Virus record (IMG/VR): IMGVR_UViG_3300028392_000279
Coordinates: 1 to 24,374 of that record
Reading direction: 5' to 3' (one strand)
Source of the DNA: a virus
Length of the DNA stretch: 24,374 nucleotides
Below, one piece after another: positions 1 through 3,719 of the stretch (the stretch's first letter is position 1; every line of letters starts with the position of its first letter). Both the position numbers and the translations under genes were made by a program. The notes below the pieces were generated by a model. It saw only the letters and a program-made list of their open reading frames with translations, was not told the DNA's origin and did not search any database.

Positions 1-1342
1 ATGAACTATCTGTCAACTGACCATTGGTTGTTGCAAAGGTCATGCGTGTTGATGTTAAGTTGTTAGCAGTCAATGATGAAACAGTTGTACCGCCAGCATG
101 GATTGTACCAGTTGTACTTAAACCACCAACTGTTAATGTTGTACCATCAGTTGTGATTGCATTACTATCTTGTAACAAACCACCTGTACCAGCATATGTC
201 AAACGACCTGATGTTAAACCAGAATCAGTGATAGATGGTGCTGAAAGACCAGTACTCATTGTCAATGAATCAGCATACAAACCACCAGCAACTGTCATAC
301 CTGATGATACGTTAGCAGTTGTAATTGTTGCTTTGGTAATTGTTGCTAATGGTGAAACTGTATTTGCATGTAATGTTGTTAAGTTACTTGCTAAAACGCC
401 TGAAGTAATTACGTTAGCAGATAACTCGGTAATATCAACATTGTCAAACAAGTAATAGTCTTGAGTACTTGCATCACGGATAAGACCAGTGATATGTGAT
501 GGGCCAGAAACTGAACCATGATTTCCGAAGAAACCGATATCAATAACGTCACCAGTTGTATTGTTTGCTGCTAACTGTAACAATGAGTCTGTAGTAACAG
601 ATGTTGTTGAGTTAACAGTTGTTGTTGTACCACTGATTGTTACGTTACCAGTAATGTTCAAATCTGTACCAATGGTCTGTGGACCAACAGATGATGTATT
701 TGAACGTAAAACTGTATTGTCTGTACCAAATGTGATTGTCTCACCACTTACATTTGTTGTAACACCACCAACACCTGTAAATGTTAATGTTGTGCCACCA
801 TAAACTGTATTTGATGATGTACCATCAGTTACATTGAATGATGAACCAGCATTTTGTGTAGTAACTGCAAGAATACGACCGTTGGCGCCAACAGTGATAA
901 CTGGAACTGTTGAACCGCCAGTTGTTGCACCACCGTATACGCCTGCTGTTAAACCTGGAACTACATCCAATGATGCATTTAATGTAACATTACCTGTACC
1001 ATCAAATGAAACTGATGATGCTGTGATGTCACTACCAGAGATACTAAAGTTACGTGCTGTCTCTAATGCTGTTGCTGTGTTAGCATTGCCATATAAACGA
1101 CCAAAGAATGCTTGGTTAGCATCACGGCGAACGATTGTAGAAGCAGTGTTAGCAGCAGTAGCAGCATCAACTTGACTTGTATAGAACAAACCACCAACAT
1201 TAGCAACTGAAGTACCAGTACTATCGCCAATGAACATTGTGTTTGACAAGTAAGAATATGCTAATTCACCAGCTTTAAGGCCAGTTGGTGTTGCTACACC
1301 AGTGGAACGCTTAATTAAGACTGTTGTTGAAGGTGTACTCAT
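1..1342 (-). CDS. Large tail fiber / virion structural protein, C-terminus beyond left edge
   Basis: My translation from the ATG at 1340-1342 stays open for 447 codons to the window edge, so the C-terminus is missing. A strong Shine-Dalgarno (AAGGAA, complement of 1348-1353) lies 5 nt upstream. Residues 1-95 form an N-terminal domain with GELAYSYLSNTMFIG and a VGG-YYT-like segment, closely resembling the small gene at 1454-1732. The rest is Thr/Gly/Ser-rich beta-type sequence. Around residues 225-295 (about 455-660) is a module NITGNVTISGTTTT...DIGFFG...GLIRD, seen also in the fiber at 12725-14713. These features are typical of trimeric beta-structured phage fibers, so I infer a tail fiber or adhesin. 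A perfect late promoter at 1434-1441 should drive it. All ten arginines I read are CGT/CGC, unlike the AGA-using neighbours. Receptor and exact role are unknown. Confidence 0.82.
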   Translation of the reverse strand, partial: MSTPSTTVLIKRSTGVATPTGLKAGELAYSYLSNTMFIGDSTGTSVANVGGLFYTSQVDAATAANTASTIVRRDANQAFFGRLYGNANTATALETARNFSISGSDITASSVSFDGTGNVTLNASLDVVPGLTAGVYGGATTGGSTVPVITVGANGRILAVTTQNAGSSFNVTDGTSSNTVYGGTTLTFTGVGGVTTNVSGETITFGTDNTVLRSNTSSVGPQTIGTDLNITGNVTISGTTTTVNSTTSVTTDSLLQLAANNTTGDVIDIGFFGNHGSVSGPSHITGLIRDASTQDYYLFDNVDITELSANVITSGVLASNLTTLHANTVSPLATITKATITTANVSSGMTVAGGLYADSLTMSTGLSAPSITDSGLTSGRLTYAGTGGLLQDSNAITTDGTTLTVGGLSTTGTIHAGGTTVSSLTANNLTSTRMTFATTNGQLTDSS

Positions 1343-1369
1343 TTTAATTCCTTTTTTGTTATTATTATT

Positions 1370-1381
1370 GTTTAATTAAAC
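1370..1381. repeat. 12-bp perfect palindrome in leader of left fiber gene
   Basis: GTTTAATTAAAC is its own reverse complement. It sits in the roughly 85-nt leader between the late promoter at 1434-1441 and the fiber start at 1342. A second 10-bp palindrome, TACCTAGGTA, lies at 1403-1412 in the same leader. Either could be chance in AT-rich DNA, and as RNA hairpins they would have almost no loop. No function is assigned. Confidence 0.4.
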
Positions 1382-1433
1382 TAATTTGATACTATGTGTT
1401 ACTACCTAGGTAAAACCAAAATCTCATGAATAT

Positions 1434-1441
1434 TATTTATA
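1434..1441 (-). promoter_or_regulatory. T4-type late promoter (TATAAATA) for left fiber gene
   Basis: The minus strand reads TATAAATA, the exact consensus bound by the T4 late sigma factor gp55, just after the stop codon of the 1454-1732 gene. Transcription would start near 1427 and give a leader of about 85 nt before the fiber ATG at 1342, unusually long for this window. A T8 run lies immediately upstream. The sequence is a perfect match; activity is inferred. Confidence 0.75.
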
Positions 1442-1453
1442 AAAAAAATGATA

Positions 1454-1732
1454 TTAGAAATGCCCACCATCAACCAAAGTCAAAATAACATTAGATACTC
1501 CATTTGAATCACGAATAACTAAAGTACTTGGAGTATCATTTGCAGATGCATTATCAATAATATTGGTATAATATTGTCCACCAACTTTAAGAATATTATT
1601 TGCGCCAGTGTATGTGGCAGCGCCAATGAATAGTGTATTTGAAACAAAAGAATATGCTAACTCACCATCAACTAGATTTAATGGTGCTGGAATATTTCTT
1701 GATCTTAATATTTGAATATGTGTATTTGACAT
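1454..1732 (-). CDS. Small fiber-associated protein, stand-alone copy of the left fiber N-terminal domain
   Basis: This 92-residue protein starts MSNTHIQILRSRN. I chose the ATG at 1730-1732 because it lies one base after the TAA of the upstream gene; an in-frame ATG at 1750 would overlap that gene by 17 nt. The protein aligns almost end to end with the first 95 residues of the large fiber at 1-1342: both have a GELAYS..SNT.FIG core, a VGG.(Y/F)YT segment, and a later (S/A)ST(L/I)V.R(R)D segment. It ends in DGGHF, the (G/A)GxF tail shared with other fiber genes here. No signal peptide or membrane segment is visible. Plausible roles are a short fiber component or an adaptor using the same attachment surface as the large fiber. 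It could also be the remnant of an exchanged fiber. Confidence 0.8.
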   Translation of the reverse strand: MSNTHIQILRSRNIPAPLNLVDGELAYSFVSNTLFIGAATYTGANNILKVGGQYYTNIIDNASANDTPSTLVIRDSNGVSNVILTLVDGGHF

Positions 1733-3068: not shown

Positions 3069-3719
3069 TTACTTTTTTAACCGATCAATTTCAGATTTAA
3101 GTTCTTTAATGGATTCAACTAAAAGTGGAATGATCCTCTCGTAATGAATCGTTAGATATTTATCGTCTATTGGCGCAGGAACAACAACTTCAGGTAATAT
3201 CTTTTGAACATCTTGTGCTGACAATCCAACATCTTTCTTAACTGGATATCCTAAATCTTGCGCTGTCTTATTTGCTTCATAGTAAAATCCTGTTAGACTA
3301 CACACTTTCTCTAAAGCATTTTCAATAATACCTAATCTTCTTTTCAATCTATCATCAGAATAGAATGCTGTAATATTACCTGTTGCAACAATGCTACCGG
3401 TTGATCCTGTTGCTCCTGTACCAACGCCTAATGAGTTAAGTGATTGATCTGCTGAAAATGTTCCTGCTGGTCCTGCTGGTCCTCCTGGTCCTTGATCGCC
3501 TCTATCACCTTTTGGACCTGCGGGCCCACCTGGTCCTCCTGGTCCTTGATCGCCTCTATCACCTTTTGGACCTGCGGGCCCACCTGGTCCTTGTGGTCCT
3601 TGTGGTCCAACAAGACCTGAGTTTGGACCTACCCAAATTCCATTTGAATTAATTACCTGATTTGTTCCAACTGTTAAACCATTTTTTATTACAAATGGAT
3701 TTGTATTTGCTGAAGGCAT
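3069..3719 (-). CDS. Collagen-like fiber with C-terminal S74 intramolecular chaperone
   Basis: Of the 216 residues, 1-34 form a short N-terminal segment. Residues 35-86 are 17 uninterrupted Gly-X-Y triplets (GPQ, GPK, GDR, GDQ types), expected to form a collagen-like triple helix. Residues 121-216 look like an endosialidase-type Peptidase_S74 chaperone, beginning SDDRLK. In that family the domain trimerises and folds the fiber, then cleaves itself off before the serine using a Ser/Lys dyad five residues apart; Ser121 and Lys126 fit. The C-terminus (IIPLLVESIKELKSEIDRLKK) is a short helix, as is usual for the family. The mature fiber would thus be only about 120 residues. An AGGA ribosome site lies about 10 nt before the ATG. 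Hydroxylation is not implied; no prolyl hydroxylase gene is in view. Confidence 0.88.
   Translation of the reverse strand: MPSANTNPFVIKNGLTVGTNQVINSNGIWVGPNSGLVGPQGPQGPGGPAGPKGDRGDQGPGGPGGPAGPKGDRGDQGPGGPAGPAGTFSADQSLNSLGVGTGATGSTGSIVATGNITAFYSDDRLKRRLGIIENALEKVCSLTGFYYEANKTAQDLGYPVKKDVGLSAQDVQKILPEVVVPAPIDDKYLTIHYERIIPLLVESIKELKSEIDRLKK
3481..3588 (-). repeat. Perfect 54-bp tandem duplication in the collagen-like segment
   Basis: Bases 3481-3534 and 3535-3588 are identical as I read them. Each unit encodes 18 residues, six Gly-X-Y triplets including KGDRGDQ. Partly similar GGTCCT-rich triplets flank it. Exact identity at synonymous positions points to a recent duplication by slippage or recombination, so the length probably varies between relatives. 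Confidence 0.92.

Follow-up and report, generated by a model that had tools for sequence, protein, structure and literature searches.

A shaftless paralogue of tail fibre 1 in uncultivated T4-like phages, proposed as an added link of a serial tail fibre

The window, which is the whole 24,374-base stretch of an uncultivated virus record analysed here, carries T4-like baseplate and fibre genes on its minus strand. The contig end cuts the gene of tail fibre 1 (P0001, 2–1342, minus strand), so that the first 447 residues are present and the fibre C-terminus lies beyond the contig end. Upstream lies a small gene (P0002, 1454–1732, minus strand) encoding a 92-residue mini-fibre with an Mtd_N-like N-terminal domain and a C-terminal DGGHF. 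A preliminary description had placed both genes correctly and had proposed that the small one duplicates the N-terminal domain of the fibre, and our alignments bear this out. By blastp, residues 3–77 of the small protein (1502–1726, minus strand) align with residues 5–76 of the fibre (1115–1330, minus strand) at 35 of 75 identical positions (47%, E 6e-15), and the two regions match at 99.7% in a profile–profile comparison with hhalign (E 4e-26). The local alignment score is 163, whereas 2000 shuffles of the small protein gave a mean of 40 and a maximum of 73, so that the best shuffle reached less than half of the real score. The string of shared motifs pointed out earlier is homologous, with a third motif that reads (P/A)ST(L/I)V.RD and not (T/S)ST, and the similarity extends to roughly fibre residue 76 instead of reaching residue 95. 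AlphaFold2 models of the two monomers, in which confidence is moderate (mean pLDDT 69 and 73; core ~80–92, tails poor), predict four strands followed by a helix in the same order in the small protein (strands 9–12, 25–28, 33–39 and 45–52, helix 53–62) and in the fibre N-end (strands 10–13, 27–30, 35–39 and 46–50, helix 52–59). Since the alignment exceeds every shuffle and the element order is the same in the two models, the proteins neither differ in predicted fold nor resemble each other merely at the level of shuffled sequence.

Scanning viral contigs returned 79 relatives. With alternative start codons taken in, 75 loci of uncultivated T4-like phages have a small gene, of 61–92 residues, immediately upstream of a fibre gene. 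The small gene is kept beside the fibre gene in related genomes. The downstream fibre has ~480–1050 residues when complete, and each of 12 long contigs holds exactly two close matches, namely the small protein and the fibre. Fusion of the two products by readthrough or frameshifting was rejected, as the genes are usually 33–51 nt apart and each has its own start. In two loci an extra 74-residue gene (MTYTHNPADPM...) is inserted, so that ~300 nt separate the small gene from the fibre, which in one of them (L013) has 1054 residues. Searches with the small protein led to four cultured relatives, Mosig, Melnitz, S-8S56 and Limnohabitans phage DC31, which have the fibre and lack the small gene, and in which the gene upstream of the fibre encodes a protein like P0003 of the window. 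No relative of the small protein was found in bacterial and archaeal genomes. The psbA/psbD family is absent from the 12 contigs searched, so a cyanobacterial host is not indicated.

To place the two copies relative to each other we built a FastTree phylogeny of the N-terminal domains of 59 small proteins and 59 fibres, in which the small proteins stand fully apart from the fibres with a support of 0.78 on ~60 columns, which is moderate. This clean split is explained by one old duplication, in agreement with the earlier view that the duplication is not recent, and it gives no support to the accompanying suggestion that one copy came from elsewhere; no later gene conversion is seen in the 59 pairs. 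The difference in codon use, also raised earlier, is present in the window (GC3 0.13 versus 0.19) and averages 0.04, with the higher value in the small gene, across 56 related loci; foreign origin on the ground of codon use was rejected, as a gap of this size is small. Both copies are under purifying selection, with a median dN/dS of 0.24 for the small genes and 0.23 for the fibre N-ends, and they keep distinct signatures, QILRSY in the small protein and I.IKRS in the fibre. By sequence the small protein is a shaftless fibre, as a decaying remnant of fibre exchange would be, and such an origin had been considered in the preliminary description. Against it stand a gene that is intact in 75 loci, the C-terminal DGGxF of all copies, the low dN/dS and 22 invariant columns among 51 small sequences, which together refute a leftover or pseudogene and make decay hardly credible.

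The small protein carries both ends of a fibre, the domain at the front as well as the five residues at the back, and the second of these matches had been missed. The sequence DGGxF, followed by at most one further residue, closes all 76 small proteins; in the window its codons occupy 1457–1471 (minus strand), and the modelled tag has a pLDDT below 50 and is probably flexible. Complete fibres of the fibre 1 family end in ...PVW....DGG[QTS]F, with the lone exception of a chimera with another end (L083). Taking homologous N-terminal domains and shared C-termini together, we assign the small protein and fibre 1, on their sequences, to one paralogue family. Many synonymous codon combinations encode DGGxF, which indicates that selection acts on the peptide and rules out a conserved DNA element at the gene ends. 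In the three long contigs G001, G003 and G007 (240, 213 and 118 ORFs), the tag occurs, besides chance matches of a looser pattern, only on four consecutive genes, which encode the P0003-like protein, the small protein, fibre 1 and a coiled-coil protein. Cultured relatives have it on the P0003-like protein and on the fibre, and S-T4, S-CAM7 and ACG-2014f have a tagged P0003-like protein with no adjacent fibre. A search of the available literature found no described C-terminal tag of the DGGxF kind.

Two genes upstream of the small gene also belong to the cassette. P0003 (1734–2090, minus strand), a protein of 118 residues ending in DAGYF with homologues in cultured Kyanoviridae, is the upstream neighbour of all 75 readable small genes and always ends in (D/N)(A/S)GxF. 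Where the small gene is absent, the P0003-like protein ends in DGG or NGG type in S-8S56, S-CAM9, P-HM2, MED4-213, Melnitz, S-T4, S-CAM7 and ACG-2014f; the exceptions are NAGAF in Mosig and ESGQY in Limnohabitans phage DC31. In one further locus without the small gene (L018), the fibre is immediately preceded by an unrelated protein that ends in DGGAF. Considered jointly, these ends imply that GG is present in almost every protein encoded immediately ahead of fibre 1. The difference in P0003 ends may trace to one ancestral change, and we regard it as supporting and not as decisive. DSL-LC03 has its P0003-like part in direct fusion with the homologous N-terminal domain of the fibre. The first gene of the cassette, P0004 (2117–2455, minus strand; 112 residues), encodes an LtfC-like protein that matches the profiles phrog_3304 (L-shaped tail fibre assembly, E 1.8e-15) and phrog_1084 (E 3e-18); it scores 18.6 bits against Pfam LtfC, under the cut-off of 27, and has relatives in 90 phage records, mostly of cyanophages. 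P-SSM2 (L204) and P-SSM5 have two LtfC-like places each.

We propose a serial tail fibre in which each part would dock by a C-terminal plug into the N-terminal socket of the next and in which the small protein would be one link, devoid of a shaft. Of the mechanisms considered we find this one the best supported, giving it about an even chance of being right. An LtfC-like collar of P0004 at the base of the chain would anchor P0003, which has a plug only. The Mtd_N-like domain of the small protein, which within its aligned region would be followed by a further segment, would act as a trimeric socket that receives the C-terminal DAGxF peptide of P0003, and the DGGxF plug of the small protein would enter a socket of this kind at the fibre 1 N-end. 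That fibre would in turn place its own DGGxF plug in a socket of a second fibre, fibre 2, a variable and presumably receptor-binding end piece with a socket and no plug. We infer the binding of tag to domain, the direction of the chain, its trimeric state, the collar role and the place in the virion. A role of the small protein at the fibre attachment interface, as the preliminary description had envisaged, is probable. The fusion in DSL-LC03 is as expected of chain neighbours. The NAGAF end of Mosig contradicts the rule that P0003 changes its plug type with the small gene, and the ESGQY of Limnohabitans phage DC31 likewise counts against the chain.

Were each tag to dock in the domain of the protein that follows, the numbers of plugs and sockets should match. 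Beyond the small protein and fibre 1, the N-domain profile finds one more domain protein downstream, fibre 2; of 65 loci examined downstream of fibre 1, 64 encode a single protein with a socket. Fibre 2 ranges from 143 to more than 1200 residues with diverse C-ends, and none of its 53 complete proteins bears the tag. We counted two plugs and two sockets in Mosig, one of each in S-T4 (socket E 1.8e-8; next match 0.6) and two of each in S-8S56, where the further socket protein has 820 residues and no plug (E 2.5e-5; next match 0.74); the counts in S-T4 and S-8S56 had been expected from the chain hypothesis before looking. Gene order alone could equalise the numbers in these three genomes. Conservation along fibre 1 is ~0.8 at one end and 0.8–0.9 at the other, compared with 0.4–0.5 in the middle, so its C-end is unlike a variable receptor tip and fits a connecting piece.

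Small-bearing phages have four plugs compared with three sockets, and the surplus plug, which the chain leaves unaccounted for, sits on the coiled-coil protein. This protein, encoded between fibre 1 and fibre 2 (L087:13007–13663 and relatives), has a DGG[ST]F end in almost every locus with a small gene, and it has no relative among phage records. A tag on a protein that lacks a socket counts against the chain and is what would be seen if a single partner, which could be the LtfC-like collar or a chaperone of assembly, bound DGGxF on P0003, the small protein, fibre 1 and the coiled-coil protein alike, with the small protein as a stub for filling or priming positions on the collar. An LtfC-like gene at the head of the cassette suits such a partner, as does the T5-like phage DT57C, in which LtfC forms a dodecameric collar whose rings accept donated fibre strands (PMC10713586). 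A common partner leaves unexplained why all 53 complete fibre 2 proteins are tagless, why plug and socket numbers agree in S-T4, S-8S56 and Mosig and why P0003 has a different tag upstream of the small gene, and we consider it rather unlikely. For the proposed chain, DT57C is informative as a setting in which docking of a short peptide is known (PMC10713586). The LtfC/LtfA joint of T5-like phages resembles our cassette in that the LtfC relative P0004 stands at its head; it differs in that DT57C docks N-terminal fibre strands, whereas the tag shared here is C-terminal and the P0004 ring is putative.

The spacer between the small gene and the fibre contains the T4-late-promoter-like octamer TATAAATA (1434–1441, minus strand). 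By itself this octamer shows no enrichment across the window (2 occurrences, 5.4 expected), whereas the late-promoter-like NATAAATA occurs in 42 of 53 distinct small–fibre spacers compared with 5.4 expected; it is a putative late promoter of the kind used by T4-like phages. Such an octamer could give the two genes different output, which would suit a stub that occupies the fibre 1 attachment site, sets the number of fibres per virion or forms mixed trimers with fibre 1, and in which N-terminal domain and C-terminal tag would both be as in the fibre. Distinct socket signatures and the absence of gene conversion in 59 pairs argue against such a competitor, as does a P0003 plug type that tracks the presence of the small gene, and we judge it improbable. 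Competition or control of fibre number is less likely than an extra joint in a serial fibre, which is a better fit to the C-terminal tag, to the numbers of plugs and sockets and to the type of plug found ahead of the small gene.

Comparison with known folds points to a possible relation of the domain to Mtd_N. Neither the small protein nor the window fibre matches Pfam Mtd_N (PF18454), let alone above its gathering score, and only one of 64 fibre N-ends gives a hit (E 1.6e-4); in a viral fold library the best matches are proteins annotated Mtd_N (E 6e-5). The match to the solved Mtd fold is weak (Z 3.4 over 43 residues with an rmsd of 2.8 for the fibre, Z 2.3 for the small protein) and carries little weight, as unrelated trimerisation domains are among the hits at Z 3–4 and SH2 domains appear at Z 2–3. 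Sequence searches of solved structures with both profiles gave no match, nor did a PDB fold search at E <0.001. The likeness to Mtd_N lies in the strand pattern and in a place at the N-terminus of fibre proteins of phages, and the difference in a free-standing domain with a C-terminal tag. A free-standing adaptor related to a fibre N-terminal anchor is also found in SP6, where gp37 links fibres to the tail; in our cassette, by contrast, the domain is retained in the fibre as well, and the small protein has fewer than 100 residues. The cassette shares its genome position with the host recognition cluster of pelagimyophages and cyanomyophages, which lies between VrlC and the neck genes and for which Mtd and YadA domains have been noted; the passages of that account on the cluster name neither the small gene nor the shared C-terminus (PMC7029224).

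Generalised, our proposal is that marine and freshwater T4-like phages build their host-recognition fibres as serial chains, in which a C-terminal DGGxF enters the trimer formed by the N-terminal Mtd_N-like domain of the protein that follows, and that the small gene is a natural case of one added link, with the P0003 plug and the new socket changing together; we think this broader statement slightly more apt to fail than to hold. If tag and domain bind, sequence alone could reveal how the parts of a fibre are ordered in environmental phages of a large, abundant group, and the swapping of end pieces of 143 to more than 1200 residues and very different sequence behind one conserved interface would be explained. 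A chain of this kind would also give many unannotated short ORFs in such genomes a testable role.

Other parts of these genomes carry related modules. P0005 (2500–3060, minus strand; 186 residues) has a Pfam Mtd_N match at its N-end (E 6.8e-10; 39.1 bits, gathering score 26.3) and is possibly a further link of the chain; hhalign gave no match between it and the small-protein profile. Both P0005 and P0008 (12725–14713, minus strand) end in GGSF, preceded by F or Q and not by D, which is perhaps a second type of plug. The adjoining region of the window at 3069–3719 (minus strand) encodes collagen-like repeats followed by an S74 peptidase/chaperone domain. The chimera noted above (L083:977–4864) is a protein of 1295 residues that starts with a small-like N-terminal domain and finishes in an unrelated sequence, TTVKLVRTSIVV, which resembles the end of P0007 in the window; judged by these similarities, it is a sign of module shuffling.
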